Part shown: piece by piece, positions 10,711 through 49,271 of the stretch
Position numbering within the stretch: position 1 is the stretch's first letter
Layout: each line of letters starts with the position of its first letter
Source of the DNA: a virus
DNA: 64,000 bases
Virus record (IMG/VR): IMGVR_UViG_3300044858_005015
Location: 1-64,000 of that record
Strand: one strand, 5' to 3'
Program-made: the position numbers and the translations under genes
Notes under the pieces: generated by a model
What the model saw: only the letters and a program-made list of their open reading frames with translations
Databases searched by the model: none
What the model was told of the DNA's origin: nothing

Positions 10711-11511
10711 TTAAAGACTATCTATCCATTTAAAGGATTGTTTAATTTGCTCTGAAAATTGCCGACCTAAAACTTCGTTCCAGTCAGGAGCTACCGGTTC
10801 TACTTTACCACGAATCGTGTGATCCCCGTAAGGCCAACCGAGCTCATGTTCATGGGTGTATTGTTCTACGTTATTAAAGTCGTGAGAAGGAGCCTCAATG
10901 CCTAGATAATTCCAGACTGCAGTCATTGTCTCAGCAGGGGCCTTGGTCAGAGATTCAAAATGAACGAAGTGAAGCTTACTCTTAAACCGCTTAACAGCGT
11001 CTGAGAGCCGCTCTACTGCGATACCTAAAGGCGGCATATTCAGCCACCCTTGTGCGCGTTTTTCTACCGTGGTCCAAAGTTGTGGGTTCTGTTTTTCCAC
11101 TCCGGTAAAGGGAAAGGGATGTTTTTGCCATTTTTTCTCAAAGGAGGAAAGAATACCGCGCATGTCTCGTACCGGTACTAGAACTTTAGCATCAGGCCAG
11201 ATAGCAAAAAGCATATCGAGATGCCCAACCCACGAACGGCATTTATCAGCTACAATAGGTCGATCTGTCAGCCGGTTGAAGGCATTCTCACATCCCCCTT
11301 TTACATAATCGTAGAACAGTGTTTCGCCATCTTTGGGGTTTGGAATTGTTTTAAATTCTTCAGTCGCAGAGAATTGCCGAGCAATATAACCGATTTCGTG
11401 GAGCCCTGAGGTTGCGGTTGAGTGAACCTTAGGATTCTGTGCTAAGAGGTTCATTAAAAGAGTTGACCCCGATCTCGGAAGCCCCGACACAAAAATTATT
11501 TTTTTACTCAT
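10711..11511 (-). CDS. Sulfotransferase (PAPS-dependent family)
   Basis: 266 aa. The N-terminal GLPRSGSTLLMNLLAQNP (9-26) is the 5'-phosphosulfate-binding loop; VLVPVRDMRGILSSFEKKW (about 130-148) fits the 3'-phosphate-binding R...S motif. Would transfer sulfate from PAPS to a hydroxyl of a glycan or protein. Embedded among fiber/adhesin genes, so a virion or host-surface glycan is the plausible target. It shares N-terminal organisation and the HDFNN.xQYT region with 48489-49271, so the two are paralogs. Confidence 0.85.
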   Translation of the reverse strand: MSKKIIFVSGLPRSGSTLLMNLLAQNPKVHSTATSGLHEIGYIARQFSATEEFKTIPNPKDGETLFYDYVKGGCENAFNRLTDRPIVADKCRSWVGHLDMLFAIWPDAKVLVPVRDMRGILSSFEKKWQKHPFPFTGVEKQNPQLWTTVEKRAQGWLNMPPLGIAVERLSDAVKRFKSKLHFVHFESLTKAPAETMTAVWNYLGIEAPSHDFNNVEQYTHEHELGWPYGDHTIRGKVEPVAPDWNEVLGRQFSEQIKQSFKWIDSL

Positions 11512-19960: not shown

Positions 19961-20695
19961 ATGTCTAATACTAAATCAGTTGTTATATACAGCGGGGGGA
20001 TGGATTCAACAGTAATCTTACATCATGCTATTAAGAACTTTGAAGATGTTTATTGTTTAACATATAACTATAATCAAAGACATAAACTTGAAATTGATAA
20101 AGCTATTAATTATACAGCTGATTTAGGTGTTGGTGAAGGTCAAAAGATTCAACAACATATTATTGTTGATTTGACATTTTACGCTAAATTAGCTACTGCA
20201 TCTGCTTTAACTAATCCTAATATTAATGTGCCTAAAATGGCGGAGGTAATTGGAGAAGCTCAAACTTTGGCGTATGTTCCAAATCGTAATACAGTAATGC
20301 TTTCAATTGCTGCTGGATATGCTGAATCTATTGGAGCAGAAACTATTCTTTATGGTGCTGCTATGGCAGACGACACGAGCGGTTTTTGGGATTGTACAAA
20401 TCATTACCTTGAACTTTATAACTCTATTTTAGCGCTTAACCGAAAGAATACTATTCAAGTTCAGGCGCCGCTTATTAAGATGTCTAAGAAGGAAATTATT
20501 CAATATGGCGTAGAGCTCGGTATTAATTTTTCTAAGACGTTAACCTGCTATAATGGGGAAGAGGTGGGCTGTTCTCAATGCCCGGCTTGTGCCGCTCGTT
20601 TGCGCGGCTTTATAGACGCAAAGTTAATTGATCCGGTTAAGTATGCTATAGACATTGACTGGACTAAGTATGGGTGTCAGCCTATAATGTCCTAA
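19961..20695 (+). CDS. queC: 7-cyano-7-deazaguanine (preQ0) synthase QueC
   Basis: 244 aa, full length for QueC. PP-loop SGGMDST (11-17), YVPNRNTVMLS (105-115) and a C-terminal zinc site C196, C204, C207, C210 (CYNGEEVGCSQCPACAAR). QueC converts 7-carboxy-7-deazaguanine to preQ0 with ATP and ammonia. In phages preQ0 feeds DNA 7-deazaguanine modification or host queuosine. The stop overlaps the start of a class II amidotransferase gene by one base, so the two are translationally coupled. FolE, QueD, QueE and a DpdA transglycosylase are not in the window. Confidence 0.93.
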   Translation: MSNTKSVVIYSGGMDSTVILHHAIKNFEDVYCLTYNYNQRHKLEIDKAINYTADLGVGEGQKIQQHIIVDLTFYAKLATASALTNPNINVPKMAEVIGEAQTLAYVPNRNTVMLSIAAGYAESIGAETILYGAAMADDTSGFWDCTNHYLELYNSILALNRKNTIQVQAPLIKMSKKEIIQYGVELGINFSKTLTCYNGEEVGCSQCPACAARLRGFIDAKLIDPVKYAIDIDWTKYGCQPIMS

Positions 20696-21339
20696 TGTGC
20701 TCTGTAGCAGGCAGTTCTAACCTCGAGAAAGCATATACTCTTTACAGGCTAGGTCTTGATAGAGGTTATCAGTCATCAGGGTTCTTAGGAGTGACCCAGA
20801 ACAACTTTGTCTTACTAAAGCAAAAGGATATCTTTGAACTCGACTATCTCAAAGAAGAGATGAAGCGTACAGAGGAGTTCCCTGTCTACTGTTTGTTTCA
20901 TTCAAGAGCTCCGACCAATACTGTTAGTCAAAGTTTTTCACCTAAGACTACACATCCCTTTTCGTTTAAGAATTGGTTTGTGGCACAGAACGGAATCATT
21001 CAGAACTTTAATGAACTGAAGACTGAAGCTACATGTATGGCCTTTAATGTCGACTCGGCTATGGTTCCCTATGACTTGTATTGGAAGAGAGGCGACATAG
21101 CTAAGACCTACGAACGTTATAAAGGCCTTTTAACTTCCTGGATCTATAATTCTATTACTGGTGAGATCTTCTTAGTTAAAGCCGGCTCCTCTCTACATAT
21201 GGACGAAGATAGCTTTTGTTCAGTCTCTTTTGAAGGTTCTCATATAGTTGAACAAGACGGAGTAGTGACTAAATTTAACGGAATGCAGTTTGAAATGTAC
21301 CAGACCTTTAACTATGACAACCCCTATTTTATTTTATGA
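20695..21339 (+). CDS. Stand-alone class II glutamine amidotransferase (Gat)
   Basis: 214 aa from MCSVAGSSN: Cys2 becomes the N-terminal nucleophile once Met is removed. Other Ntn-amidotransferase motifs: HSRAPTNT (69-76) with the substrate Arg, TTHPF (85-89), the oxyanion QNGIIQNFNEL (98-108) and NVDSAMV (118-124). Start chosen because only this ATG puts Cys second; a longer frame to 20674 would bury it. In phages a Gat domain fused to QueC (Gat-QueC) is linked to amidating preQ0 to archaeosine-type bases; here Gat is separate and follows QueC. No synthetase domain is attached, so it presumably supplies ammonia to QueC or acts on preQ0. Confidence 0.85.
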   Translation: MCSVAGSSNLEKAYTLYRLGLDRGYQSSGFLGVTQNNFVLLKQKDIFELDYLKEEMKRTEEFPVYCLFHSRAPTNTVSQSFSPKTTHPFSFKNWFVAQNGIIQNFNELKTEATCMAFNVDSAMVPYDLYWKRGDIAKTYERYKGLLTSWIYNSITGEIFLVKAGSSLHMDEDSFCSVSFEGSHIVEQDGVVTKFNGMQFEMYQTFNYDNPYFIL

Positions 21340-22061
21340 AACAAGTATTACTCGTAACCGCAACTAAAGCTAAGACTCTAGAAGAGTTTCAGCAAAGACC
21401 TCTAGCTAAGTCTTTACAAGTGCTCTGTGACAGGAGATACGACAAGTCAATGTTCGACTTTGAAGTAGTTAAGGATAACTCAACCGGCTTACCTGAAGTC
21501 TACAACCGCTATCTGACTGAAGAGAATAAGGACAAATTACTACTTTTTGTACACGACGACTTGGAGATCCATGACTTGAACTTAGTAGAGAAGCTTAACC
21601 AGTCGCCTTGGGATATTACCGGTCTGGCGGGAGGTGCTACGTTTGAACTAAAAGATAAGAACTTATGGCACATTTGTTCAAAGCGTGAATCTCAAACCGG
21701 CTCTGTCAGTCATCCTCTCTGTTGGCAGGAAGGCAATCAGCTCAAAGTAGACAATACCCGACAGATTGTTACCACCTTTGGACCGACCCCTATGAGAGCT
21801 CTAATTCTAGATGCACTGTTTATGTGTGTTAACGTTGAGAGAGCTCTAGAGGTAGGCTTTAAATTGGACGAAGACTTTAAGTTTCACCACTGGGACATTT
21901 CTTCCTGTCTTTTGGCTAATGAGAAGAAGCTAACTATGGGCACCTATCCTGTTTACTGTCTGCATCATGGCCTGGGCAATTCGTTTATGTCTCAGGACTG
22001 GGAAGATTCTAATAACATTTTTAAAGATAAATGGCAAAGTGCCTTGAAGAAGTCTGAATAG
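21336..22061 (+). CDS. GT2-like glycosyltransferase
   Basis: 241 aa. Resembles short GT-A proteins of the Glyco_tranf_2_5 type: N-terminal LLVTATKAK, a metal-binding-like LLLFVHDDLEIHD (about 70-82), DITGLAGGATFEL, then LDALFMCVNVERALEVGF and an acidic/His-rich DFKFHHWDISSCL. Starts inside the Gat stop (ATGA). Its place in the queC-gat unit suggests glycosylation linked to base modification, or of another phage product; the substrate cannot be read from sequence. Confidence 0.65.
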   Translation: MKQVLLVTATKAKTLEEFQQRPLAKSLQVLCDRRYDKSMFDFEVVKDNSTGLPEVYNRYLTEENKDKLLLFVHDDLEIHDLNLVEKLNQSPWDITGLAGGATFELKDKNLWHICSKRESQTGSVSHPLCWQEGNQLKVDNTRQIVTTFGPTPMRALILDALFMCVNVERALEVGFKLDEDFKFHHWDISSCLLANEKKLTMGTYPVYCLHHGLGNSFMSQDWEDSNNIFKDKWQSALKKSE

Positions 22062-22071
22062 CCTTTATATT
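22044..22071 (+). promoter_or_regulatory. Sigma70-type promoter
   Basis: TTGAAG (22044-22049), 16 bp, TATATT (22066-22071), 10 nt to the ATG at 22082. It overlaps the end of the glycosyltransferase gene. Confidence 0.5.
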
Positions 22072-22081
22072 ATTACACACT

Positions 22082-22669
22082 ATGATTATTAAACGCGATA
22101 AACTAAAAGAGTTAACTGGATCTGATTACTACTGCGGTAAAGCGCTACATGAACGCTTAGCTTACAAGCTTTACAAGAAGGAAGTTAACCCTTTGGGCAA
22201 TATTATTTCTTTTATTGCTCCCATGACTGTGATCGAGAACCTTATCGACCTCGAGGATTCTCTTAACAAAGACTATATCTATTCTGAGTCAGCTATGAAT
22301 TTCCTTATGGAGATTCCTGGTAAGGATCTTTGGGGTGGTACCTTGTTCCAGCGCTTGCTTAATGCTCAGGTCGGCTCTTTACTCTGTTCAAAGTATCTGG
22401 AGACTGATGGTTATGTTGACGGAGACGACATTATGGTCAAGGACGGAGATGAGTATAAGAAGGCTTCAGTTAGTATTGCAGCTGAGAAGAACGGAGCCGT
22501 TCTAATCCATCTCGGTATTAATATTAATGCCGGTCCTAAAGCACCTTCATTTGCCTATTCAACCAACCTTTCTGAAGAGAAGGCTGTTGACTTTATGACT
22601 GAAGTTGAAGGTATCTTTTATGAGATTCTAACTTCGGTCTTTGTAGCGACCACGAAAGTTGTAGTGTGA
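22082..22669 (+). CDS. DUF366-like protein
   Basis: 195 aa. Matches the DUF366 pattern: VIENLIDLEDSLNKDYIYSE (about 50-69), the FQRLLNAQVG core, GDDIMV, and VSIAAEKNGAVLIHLGININ (about 129-148), corresponding to the family's SVSIAT...LIHFGINV. DUF366 is of uncharacterised activity. It follows the queC-gat-glycosyltransferase genes and overlaps the gp62-type gene (GTGA). Confidence 0.65.
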   Translation: MIIKRDKLKELTGSDYYCGKALHERLAYKLYKKEVNPLGNIISFIAPMTVIENLIDLEDSLNKDYIYSESAMNFLMEIPGKDLWGGTLFQRLLNAQVGSLLCSKYLETDGYVDGDDIMVKDGDEYKKASVSIAAEKNGAVLIHLGININAGPKAPSFAYSTNLSEEKAVDFMTEVEGIFYEILTSVFVATTKVVV

Positions 22670-23019
22670 CGATATTTGACTATCTTAAAGACGTTGTTGT
22701 GTTCAAGAAGGGCAGTCTGCCTTTAGACGAGTACATTCCGTTTCTCATCAATCGGTGGCTGTCCTTCTTTACCCCTCAAGTCTGTCCTGCTATTAACGAG
22801 AGTGTTAATAGACTGGGTAGTATGGACAAGGAGCAGCATTACAGGCTTTTGCTAAGGCTTTTTCCTAAGCAGAAGTTTATGCCTCGGATCAACTATATTA
22901 AGAAAGTCAAACACGAGAAGACTAAAGAGGATGATAGAATAGAACATCTATCCCAGAACCTAGAACTGTCACAGAGAGAAACGAAACTATTACTGGAACT
23001 TACTGAACAATTAACTTAA
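22666..23019 (+). CDS. Clamp-loader small subunit, T4 gp62-like
   Basis: 117 aa with a GTG start overlapping the previous stop. FDYLKDVVVFKKG, PFLINRWLSFF, INESVNRLG and HYRLLLRLFPKQKF are the signature of gp62-type subunits in marine T4-like phages, which are shorter than T4 gp62 (187 aa). With a gp44-type ATPase (not in window) it would load the gp45 sliding clamp. The C-terminal 30 residues are helical. Confidence 0.8.
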   Translation: MTIFDYLKDVVVFKKGSLPLDEYIPFLINRWLSFFTPQVCPAINESVNRLGSMDKEQHYRLLLRLFPKQKFMPRINYIKKVKHEKTKEDDRIEHLSQNLELSQRETKLLLELTEQLT

Positions 23020-29491: not shown

Positions 29492-30505
29492 ATGAATAAA
29501 TCTCTCAATTATAAAGACGTTCACCTTGTACCTAATTACTCTGATCTCAAATCGCGCTCAGAGGCTGACACCTCAGTCAAGTTAGGCAATTTTACTTTTA
29601 AGCTTCCTATTGTACCGGCTAACATGGCCTCTTGTATCTCTTATGAGAAGGCTACTTGGCTGTCACAGAACGGTTACTTCTATATCCTTCACCGGTTTTA
29701 TGACTATGATGAGATCTTGAACTGGATGCGTAGAATGAACAAGTGTTCTGATCTTCTACCTTTTGTTTCTATCTCAGTAGGTATTAAGCAGAGAGATGTA
29801 GAGTTCCTGGCTAAGGTGGTAGACGAGAAGCTTAGACTTGACTTTATTACTGTTGATGTGGCCCATGGTGACCATGAAGAGGTTATCGGTATGTTAGGAT
29901 ACTTGAGGGCACTTAGACGCTGTGTCTACCCAGAGCTGTTTATCATCGGTGGCAATATTGCTACACGGAGCGCTTTCCAGCGGCTTAAGCCATATGTAGA
30001 TGCGGTGAAGGTTGGTGTAGGCCCGGGCGCAGCCTGCACAACTTACAATAAGACAGGGTTTGCATCTCCTATGTTTTCTACCGTAAAAGAGATTGCTGAA
30101 GTTAAAGAGTCTCATTCTATGGCTGGTAACGGAGAAGGTTCTACACCTCCCTATGTAGCACCTCTCATTATCGCCGATGGAGGTATTTCTTGTAATGGAG
30201 ATATTGCCAAGGCTCTAGTAGCAGGAGCTGATATGGTTATGGCTGGGTCAATGTTCGCCCGGTGTATTGATTCTCCGGCTATGGTCGACCCTACTGATCC
30301 TACTAAGAAGCTCTACTTCGGTTCTGCTTCTGCTATGAACGGCAATAAGAAGAACATTGAAGGACGGACCTTGTCTATGCCTATGAACGGGATGACCTAC
30401 GAACAGAAGATGAATGAGGTTAGACAGGATTTGGCATCAGCTGTTTCTTATGCTGGAGGCAATGATTTAGAAGCCTTCAAAGAAGTTGAATACCGTCTCA
30501 TTTGA
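29492..30505 (+). CDS. guaC: GMP reductase, GuaC type
   Basis: 337 aa, single TIM barrel without CBS domains. Cys loop VGVGPGAACTTYNKTG (174-189) with catalytic C182, PLIIADGGISCNGDIAKAL (about 220-238), and the C-terminal YFGSASAMNGNKKNIEG (about 274-290) and QDLASAVSYAGG, matching the Bacillus/Staphylococcus GuaC branch rather than IMP dehydrogenase. Reduces GMP to IMP with NADPH. In a phage it could rebalance guanine pools or act on a modified GMP; the latter is speculation prompted by queC in the window. Confidence 0.85.
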   Translation: MNKSLNYKDVHLVPNYSDLKSRSEADTSVKLGNFTFKLPIVPANMASCISYEKATWLSQNGYFYILHRFYDYDEILNWMRRMNKCSDLLPFVSISVGIKQRDVEFLAKVVDEKLRLDFITVDVAHGDHEEVIGMLGYLRALRRCVYPELFIIGGNIATRSAFQRLKPYVDAVKVGVGPGAACTTYNKTGFASPMFSTVKEIAEVKESHSMAGNGEGSTPPYVAPLIIADGGISCNGDIAKALVAGADMVMAGSMFARCIDSPAMVDPTDPTKKLYFGSASAMNGNKKNIEGRTLSMPMNGMTYEQKMNEVRQDLASAVSYAGGNDLEAFKEVEYRLI

Positions 30506-30514
30506 GTGTATAAT
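30486..30514 (+). promoter_or_regulatory. Sigma70-type promoter, near consensus
   Basis: TTGAAT (30486-30491), 17 bp, TATAAT (30509-30514), 6 nt to the ATG at 30521. Lies within the end of the GMP reductase gene. Confidence 0.7.
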
Positions 30515-30520
30515 ACAGAG

Positions 30521-31378
30521 ATGTACTATTTGATTCTTGGTAAAGGTTTTGTCGGTTCTAATCTAGCCCAGCACTTTAAGGATACTAAAGTTCCTTATAA
30601 GATTTTTTCTCAGTCAGAGCTTGATTATACTAATCCGTCTGTGTTTGAGAAATATATAAAAGAAAATAATATTGAAATTAAAGAAATTATTATAGCTTTT
30701 GGACTAACAGGGGTACCAAATGTTGATTTTTGCGAAGACAATAAAGAGCTCTGCTATGCCTATAACGTCCTCTACCCTATGCAGGTAGTTCGTATCTGTG
30801 AGCAGTACGTTATTCCCGTAGTGCATGTAGGTTCGGGGTGCATTTATTCTGGTTACGACAAAGCATACACTGAAGAGGATACCCCTAACTTTGGAATGTT
30901 CTCCGACGACTCTTCCTACTACTCAAAGTGTAAGCATGTCTTTGAGACCTTTGCCCAAGGACGGAAGTGTTATGTATTGCGTATTCGGATTCCTTTCACT
31001 TCTGATTATTCCCGGAAGAACTACTTCACCAAGCTCCTCAAATACGATACCCTTATTAATGAGCTCAATTCAGTGACCTCTATTAAGGACTTTAATGTAT
31101 TTGTTGCTAAATTTATCCGCCAGCATCCCGAGTACGGAATTTACAATGTTGTTAACCCTCAACCAGTAAAGGCTGAAGATGTGGTTCAGATTCTTAAAGA
31201 TCACGGACTATCTAATCCTGATTGGCGTTTTATTTCTCTCTCTGAACTGAACACCAAAGCTAATCGTTCCAACTGTGTTTTATCAACAGATAAGATTGAT
31301 GCTTTAGGCTTGTCATTACCTGACACCAAGCAATCACTTATTCGGGACATAGCCCAGCTCTCCTTAGTTACCCCATGA
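30521..31378 (+). CDS. RmlD-like NAD(P)-dependent sugar-nucleotide reductase
   Basis: 285 aa. Rossmann start YYLILGKGFVGSNLAQHF (GxGxxG variant), VVHVGSGCIYSG (about 107-118) and catalytic YYSKCKHVFE (Y-x3-K, about 134-143) of extended SDRs, closest in style to dTDP-4-dehydrorhamnose reductases. Start fixed by the promoter 6 nt upstream. Would make an activated sugar; the glycosyltransferases at 21336 and 47306 are possible consumers. Confidence 0.75.
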   Translation: MYYLILGKGFVGSNLAQHFKDTKVPYKIFSQSELDYTNPSVFEKYIKENNIEIKEIIIAFGLTGVPNVDFCEDNKELCYAYNVLYPMQVVRICEQYVIPVVHVGSGCIYSGYDKAYTEEDTPNFGMFSDDSSYYSKCKHVFETFAQGRKCYVLRIRIPFTSDYSRKNYFTKLLKYDTLINELNSVTSIKDFNVFVAKFIRQHPEYGIYNVVNPQPVKAEDVVQILKDHGLSNPDWRFISLSELNTKANRSNCVLSTDKIDALGLSLPDTKQSLIRDIAQLSLVTP

Positions 31379-48488: not shown

Positions 48489-49271
48489 TTAAAAGTTAAA
48501 GTGAAAATTTTGAAATTGTTCATGCATATAACCTAGAACTTCTTTTGAATCGTCTTTTACTGGGGCTATTTTAGGTCTAATGGTGTGAAGATCAGTAAAG
48601 CCGTGTTCAGCATCATTCTCTTTCGTATACTGAGGTATATTGTTAAAGTCATGATCGAAGTATTCTTCATCTAAAAACTCATAAACGTACTTTATAGTAA
48701 GTTCGGGCTGTGTAGTTAGCTTGTCAAAATCAATAAAGTGAAATTTATCTCTGTGACCTCTCATTACAGCGTCTCTAATGGAGTTAAATGTACCACCGAT
48801 TAACCCGTCTTGAGCGGCCCATACACCAAGTCTTCCTTCCAGTGTTTGCATCTGCGGGCCAGTCTCCATAGGAGAGTTTATATTTTTTATTTCTTTTCTA
48901 TAAAGCTTTTCCATAGAGGCCAGGATACAGGTTATCTTTCTTGTAGTAGTTAAGATTTTAATAGGGTGGCCTAAAGCATTTTCTACGAGTTCAATTTTAG
49001 GTGCCCAGCCTCTCGATTTATTAAAGACTGTAGGGCGATCGGTGTCCTGATGATAGGACTGAAAGAGATCTTTAATAATTGACAACTGCTTTTCGGGTGT
49101 TTCAGAAGCTTTAATTACCGGATTGTTTTTCCAAAACTGATGCACCCCCTGAACCAATTCAGATAAACCTGAAGTCGGTGTAACATGAAATTTTGGGTTC
49201 TGTGCTAGAATGTTGCACAGAAGGGTTGAACCTGAACGGGGCATCCCGTTTATGAAGTAAATTTTTCTCAT
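48489..49271 (-). CDS. Sulfotransferase (PAPS-dependent family), second copy
   Basis: 260 aa. INGMPRSGSTLLCNILAQNP (7-26) is the 5'-PSB loop; ILTTTRKITCILASMEKLY (about 108-126) is the 3'-phosphate motif. DHDFNNIPQYT matches the HDFNNVEQYT of 10711-11511, so these are paralogs at moderate divergence. In an unbroken minus-strand run with the GT9 gene, suggesting a glycosylate-then-sulfate pathway. Confidence 0.85.
   Translation of the reverse strand: MRKIYFINGMPRSGSTLLCNILAQNPKFHVTPTSGLSELVQGVHQFWKNNPVIKASETPEKQLSIIKDLFQSYHQDTDRPTVFNKSRGWAPKIELVENALGHPIKILTTTRKITCILASMEKLYRKEIKNINSPMETGPQMQTLEGRLGVWAAQDGLIGGTFNSIRDAVMRGHRDKFHFIDFDKLTTQPELTIKYVYEFLDEEYFDHDFNNIPQYTKENDAEHGFTDLHTIRPKIAPVKDDSKEVLGYMHEQFQNFHFNF

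Follow-up and report, generated by a model that had tools for sequence, protein, structure and literature searches.

The cluster of four genes found in an uncultured T4-like phage raises the question of whether the phage makes a 7-deazaguanine for its DNA and, if so, whether the last two genes of the cluster elaborate the modified base. The window analyzed here is 64,000 nucleotides long and comprises bases 1-64000 of a 68,269-base IMG/VR viral record that is itself a fragment. At positions 19961-22669, it contains four tightly packed genes on the plus strand that encode, in this order, the 7-cyano-7-deazaguanine (preQ0) synthase QueC, a stand-alone class II glutamine amidotransferase (GAT), a glycosyltransferase (GT) and a DUF366 protein. 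The next gene, for a clamp-loader-like protein (22666-23019, plus strand; phrog_225, 1.9e-08), is included as context and lies outside the proposed function. The TAA stop codon of queC (20693-20695) and the ATG of the GAT gene at 20695 have one base in common (TAATG), and the GAT and GT genes overlap by ATGA, with the GT start at 21336. The four-gene cluster and its junctions, originally recognized from the letters of the DNA, are thus confirmed by the coordinates and by the Pfam matches described below. Comparison with relatives gives dN values of 0.08-0.20 and dS values from 0.9 to saturation for all four genes, which indicates that they evolve under purifying selection. A megablast search of the region against isolated phages yields no match. 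The window also contains a GMP reductase-like gene.

QueC and the stand-alone amidotransferase

The QueC protein (19961..20695, plus strand, 244 amino acids) matches Pfam PF06508 at 3.8e-60 and scores 187 bits against TIGR00364 (7-cyano-7-deazaguanine synthase), for which the NCBIfam equivalog cut-off is 150. The motifs of the protein (SGGMDS, YNQRHKLE, VPNRN, FWDC and CYNGEEVGCSQCPAC) were checked against the canonical signature in PMC13329287 and are kept, with the sole exception of FWDC in place of YPDC; at the first position of the latter motif, an aromatic ring is required and Phe is partly active (PMC13329287). Judging by these profile and motif matches, the protein is a member of the canonical preQ0 synthase family.

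The GAT gene (20695..21339, plus strand) encodes a protein of 214 amino acids that starts with Met-Cys and matches GATase_6 (PF13522) at 9.4e-07, exceeding the gathering cut-off. Residues C2, H87-P88, N99-G100 and D120 are invariant in an alignment of 22 sequences that includes KVP40.0125, so that the class II motifs that the sequence-only reading ascribed to this protein are borne out as an invariant set of catalytic residues. The two proteins are encoded by separate genes, with queC first, and do not form a Gat-QueC fusion.

Gene-order conservation

Profile scans of viral contigs identified 343 relatives of GAT and 305 relatives of DUF366. A survey of gene order covered 66 deduplicated GAT loci, 58 of which are testable for QueC and 63 for GT. 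Of the 58 testable loci, 56 have queC just upstream of the GAT gene and in the same orientation; the GT gene is just downstream in 56 of 63, with a four-base GAT/GT overlap like that in the window in about 39 loci. The sequence-only reading had offered a lack of conservation of these neighbors with queC as a test of its proposal, and the proposal survives it. On the evidence of these sequences, the order and coupling of QueC, GAT and GT go far beyond chance. The trio occurs in two genomic settings: in one, which is that of the window, it is followed by the genes for DUF366 and the clamp loader, and in the other, it lies between the genes for UvsX and the gp41 helicase. In a third group of loci, a NodU-type carbamoyltransferase is encoded upstream of QueC-GAT and GT is missing, as if the tailoring genes had been exchanged.

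The rest of the pathway in larger relatives

The sequence-only reading recommended a search for FolE, QueD, QueE and a DpdA-type transglycosylase. None of these enzymes, nor QueF, was found in the 68-kb fragment to which the window belongs, whereas larger relatives encode them. Among 13 further records searched, 12 are of 71-230 kb; QueD, QueE and FolE are present in most of these 12 records, as are QueF and a formyltransferase-like enzyme (FolE and QueF were confirmed by Pfam, and QueD and QueE by Pfam and PHROGs). A DpdA-type protein of about 270 amino acids with a TGT fold is encoded in all 12, and genes for QueF, the formyltransferase-like enzyme and a kinase-like protein form a conserved run behind it. 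Although this protein is labeled 'unknown function' in PHROGs, its AlphaFold2 model (pLDDT 93.1) has tRNA-guanine transglycosylases as the top PDB matches, and a member of the family in Flavobacterium phage immuto is annotated as 'DNA guanine transglycosylase'. The family is also represented in Campylobacter phages CP220 and CPt10, the dG of which is reported to be 100% replaced by dADG (7-amido-7-deazaguanine) (PMC8306585). The PHROG profiles of DpdA1 and DpdA2 (phrog_887 and phrog_10773, respectively) match none of 25 records, fragments included, and the absence of DpdA1 is to be read as weak because the phrog_887 control matched nowhere. The Pfam TGT profile (PF01702) gave no match in the phages and was dropped as a test because it also misses the DpdA of phage 9g and the DpdA2 of KVP40. 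The TGT-fold family and the formyltransferase-like enzyme may be equivalent to DpdA3 and to the preQ1 formyltransferase, respectively, of Cui et al. 2023.

In five loci of relatives, QueC-GAT is encoded in a single run with FolE, the DpdA-like protein, the formyltransferase, the kinase, QueF and QueD, and in most of the five, QueE is in that run as well. This arrangement indicates that GAT belongs to the DNA 7-deazaguanine pathway, and the QueC-GAT pair very probably acts in the synthesis of 7-deazaguanine for DNA. The earlier claim that QueC and GAT are a linked pair in such a pathway is accordingly upheld by the pathway enzymes of larger relatives. The relatives that supply the pathway are often distant, with GAT about 30-50% identical. 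Several metagenomes, e.g., 3300007216, 3300019776 and 3300042332, contain both cassette contigs and contigs with the transglycosylase module.

The glycosyltransferase and the DUF366 protein

The GT of the window (21336..22061, plus strand, 241 amino acids) has no Pfam, PHROG or NCBIfam match of its own. Orthologs that occupy the equivalent position exceed the cut-off of PF13712 (Glyco_tranf_2_5; 1e-8 to 3e-11) and therefore, the identification of the protein as a GT-A glycosyltransferase, made before any database search, is right by family; we denote it a GT2-family glycosyltransferase of the PF13712 type. Alignments reveal an HDD motif at positions 73-75 and invariant residues D159, H184 and D187. 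Among the isolated phages searched, GT has no match, and 136, 51 and 26 records match QueC, GAT and the transglycosylase, respectively. Phages of this group carry several other GTs.

The DUF366 protein (22082..22669, plus strand, 195 amino acids) matches PF04017 at 8.2e-21, with 74.7 bits against a gathering threshold of 29.9. A Foldseek search with its AlphaFold2 model (pLDDT 93.5) retrieves first the PDB entry 2ddz (TM-score 0.79), a protein of the same family and fold from Pyrococcus horikoshii that was solved in 2007 without an assigned function, and then biotin/lipoate ligases, with many BPL/LplA matches (for MjBPL, E 3e-06 and TMq 0.55). The predicted structure is that of the biotin/lipoate-protein-ligase fold. 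Residues GDD 114-116, K127, H143 and N147 are invariant; read by eye, the first two of these may correspond to the Asp/Lys motif of the BPL active site. No function of DUF366 was found in the literature searched. The cellular members examined are located outside que clusters; those in Vampirovibrio MAGs have no que genes nearby and give no functional clue, and DUF366 is missing in two control archaea that possess QueC and TGT. The sole match among isolated phages is a doubtful record, the 'Microcystis phage' MaAM05, which was rejected and left out of the phage evidence because the neighboring genes (glyS, fabI, fliM and secF) look bacterial.

Genomic context provides mixed clues to the function of this protein. 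In the loci listed, the gene directly after DUF366 is that for the clamp loader, also in those in which QueC is distant, and DUF366 may therefore serve replication or another role; this adjacency is the main argument against a role of DUF366 in modification. In 6 of the 12 loci with DUF366 only, QueC is encoded elsewhere in the record, and the other 6 are fragments of 28-73 kb. Both GT and DUF366 are present in 12 records in addition to the window, often at a distance of tens of kb from each other, and one record of 163 kb with the whole basic pathway (G048) has neither. This co-occurrence speaks for the suggestion of the sequence-only reading that the two proteins extend the modification. Given that three fragments contain GT without DUF366 and five contain DUF366 without GT, however, it is from the large records that the rule derives, and shared ancestry alone may account for it. 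A role of GT on the modified DNA or base is a realistic prospect, if slightly short of probable, and the same role for DUF366 is a little more doubtful.

Proposed mechanism and alternative explanations

The cassette is likely to represent the preQ0-making part of a phage pathway that replaces guanine in DNA with a 7-deazaguanine, to which two putative tailoring genes are added. FolE, QueD and QueE, encoded elsewhere in the genome as they are in larger relatives, would make the precursor. Judging from the respective families, QueC would activate 7-carboxy-7-deazaguanine with ATP, and GAT would hydrolyze glutamine and pass the ammonia to QueC, yielding 7-amido-7-deazaguanine and preQ0; coupling and co-conservation of the two genes are observed, and the supply of ammonia to QueC is perhaps the sole role of GAT. 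QueF would then reduce preQ0 towards preQ1, the amine of which may be formylated by the formyltransferase-like enzyme, and the TGT-fold DpdA-type enzyme, by its fold and orthology, would swap DNA guanine for the modified base. GT and DUF366, an additional pair in only part of these phages, may decorate the base, with GT adding a sugar and DUF366, which has the fold of ligases that activate a carboxylic acid by adenylation and link it to an amine, possibly acylating the aminomethyl group. Such a modification would protect the DNA against host restriction. Taken as a whole, the scheme in which uncultured T4-like phages replace DNA guanine with a glycosylated and/or acylated 7-deazaguanine, with GT adding the sugar and DUF366 acting on the aminomethyl group as an adenylating acid ligase, is speculative and rather unlikely to hold in every part.

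The alternatives concern either the product of QueC-GAT or the involvement of its two followers. The pair might be a split archaeosine synthase that converts preQ0 to G+, as the Gat-QueC of Enterobacteria phage 9g does, in which case the DNA would carry dG+. The GAT profile picks up the 9g protein at 2e-07 and, according to PMC6884629, the fused Gat-QueC of 9g together with DpdA gives dG+. We nevertheless consider this possibility unlikely. In the same paper, the DNA of vibriophage nt-1, which has the split pair, is described as containing mainly dPreQ0, with traces only of dG+. Furthermore, most of the large relatives encode a full-length QueF and the formyltransferase-like enzyme, from which we infer that preQ1-type products are favored; the link to archaeosine drawn in the sequence-only reading is weakened to that extent. 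Yet less credible is the possibility that the modified base is made as a nucleotide and enters the DNA via the polymerase as modified dGTP, rather than by base exchange, as proposed for Campylobacter phages (PMC6884629). The kinase-like gene that accompanies QueF, the GMP reductase-like gene of the window and a dATP/dGTP diphosphohydrolase-like gene in one other locus are compatible with such a route, but the presence in 12 of the 12 large records of the TGT-fold enzyme, the family of which includes the protein of the Campylobacter phages, argues for base exchange. Finally, QueC could be a protein modifier of the anti-phage type, similar to Cap9 or QatC, that places a deazaguanine onto protein, given that protein N-termini are the substrates of the QueC-family enzymes in type IV CBASS and qatABCD (PMC13329287). 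This role was rejected as extremely improbable: PADLOC gave no match for GAT, GT or DUF366 and no CD-NTase or QatA/B/D partner was found, QueC passes the TIGR00364 equivalog cut-off and matches the canonical signature almost throughout, and in relatives the pair is embedded in complete base-synthesis clusters.

A more serious contender leaves the role of QueC-GAT intact and holds that GT and DUF366 are unrelated to deazaguanine, with GT acting on capsid, fiber or host glycans and DUF366 being a core gene of the replication region that is carried along. The constant clamp-loader neighbor of DUF366 is in line with this explanation, as are the glycosyltransferase arrays that precede DUF366 in loci remote from QueC, the basic pathway without GT or DUF366 in G048 and in the immuto stretch examined, and the several other GTs of these phages, which could act on the capsid or the host surface. 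Against it, the GT and GAT genes have four bases in common in most loci, GT accompanies QueC-GAT in two genomic settings, and GT and DUF366 are found in one genome also where tens of kb separate them. We regard this explanation as plausible but somewhat less than probable, and prefer the assignment of both genes to the tailoring of the base.

Novelty and comparison with known systems

The novelty lies in GT and DUF366 as stable additions to a known QueC-GAT pathway. The phage 7-deazaguanines in the literature searched are all small (preQ0, preQ1, ADG and G+), and no description of a glycosylated or acylated 7-deazaguanine was found there. Should GT and DUF366 tailor the base, hypermodification with sugars or acids would extend from cytosine and thymine to guanine, which would bear on the evasion of restriction and, perhaps, of CRISPR; DUF366, an orphan family common to phages and archaea, would acquire its first function, and one with testable chemistry. 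The hundreds of relatives of GAT and DUF366, together with the lack of an isolated-phage match for GT, suggest that the system is common but unstudied.

The sequence-only reading took QueC and GAT for a fusion split into two coupled genes and considered the cluster as a whole the best candidate for an undescribed system in the window. The split itself is real but, judging from gene order and homology, it is not new, being preceded by that in the KVP40/nt-1-type vibriophages (Schizotequatrovirus). As in the window, GAT is encoded directly after queC in these phages with a one-base overlap, and both GAT (2e-46) and QueC are homologous to those of the cassette, although the GATs of KVP40 and the window are only 20% identical. 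Genes for FolE, QueF and a DpdA2-like protein are located near the pair in KVP40. The KVP40 GAT is annotated as hypothetical only, and no discussion of the split pair was found in the passages of PMC6884629 that were searched. Unlike the window, these vibriophages have no match to GT or DUF366, and they use DpdA2 (phrog_10773), which was not found in the cassette relatives. Phage 9g likewise employs a class II amidotransferase and QueC in a DNA 7-deazaguanine pathway, that of dG+, but as a single fused polypeptide, in contrast to the two genes of the window; it uses DpdA1 (phrog_887), which was not found in the cassette relatives, and the 9g stretch examined has no match to QueF, GT or DUF366. 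Phage immuto has the same TGT-fold DpdA family as the cassette relatives, with the formyltransferase, kinase and QueF genes in the same order, and CP220 and CPt10 share the TGT-fold family; in the stretches examined, none of the three has a match to GAT, GT or DUF366. For the proposed chemistry of DUF366, the precedent is CmoY, an adenylating ligase that extends a phage DNA base (PMC12783734). In the CmoX/CmoY system of Synechococcus phage S-B43, the base in question is carboxymethylcytosine rather than a deazaguanine, and CmoY is asparagine-synthetase-like rather than BPL/LplA-like, but an adenylating amide ligase extends a handle on the base (PMC12783734), as proposed here for DUF366.

PHROG family 19058, labelled as having unknown function in PHROG, is a TGT-fold protein of the DpdA type (DNA guanine transglycosylase), with at least 554 relatives on viral contigs. 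Its gene heads a conserved run that also includes formyltransferase-like, kinase-like and QueF genes (loci L237, L244, L257, L261, L278, L300 and L303-L382).

Approximately 7 kb downstream of the cassette, the window encodes a GMP reductase-like protein (29492-30505) and, adjacent to it, an RmlD-like NDP-sugar reductase (30506-31378), a pair that is retained in close relatives. Two sulfotransferase-family genes (10711-11511 and 48489-49271) flank different structural or repeat genes.

In one lineage (L010), a DenV-like pyrimidine-dimer DNA glycosylase gene (PF03013; L010:9523-9984) lies between the class II amidotransferase gene (GAT) and DUF366. The QueC relative L029:1718-2470 has lost the zinc-binding cysteines while keeping the other motifs; a dATP/dGTP diphosphohydrolase-like gene is located nearby. 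In L073, L080 and L092, QueC and GAT are separated by genes that resemble those for heme oxygenase and phycobilin reductase, as named by reading rather than by family search; their presence suggests cyanobacterial hosts for this lineage. The DUF366 match in L001 (MW495066, "Microcystis phage MaAM05") is surrounded by glyS, fabI, secF and fliM; this gene content looks bacterial rather than phage, and the record is possibly mislabelled.

The L071-L103 group lacks the glycosyltransferase gene. Here, a NodU-type carbamoyltransferase gene adjoins QueC on its upstream side (e.g., L071:308-1912, directly upstream), and methyltransferase-like genes are found close to QueC-GAT. Together, these genes might represent an alternative set of tailoring genes.
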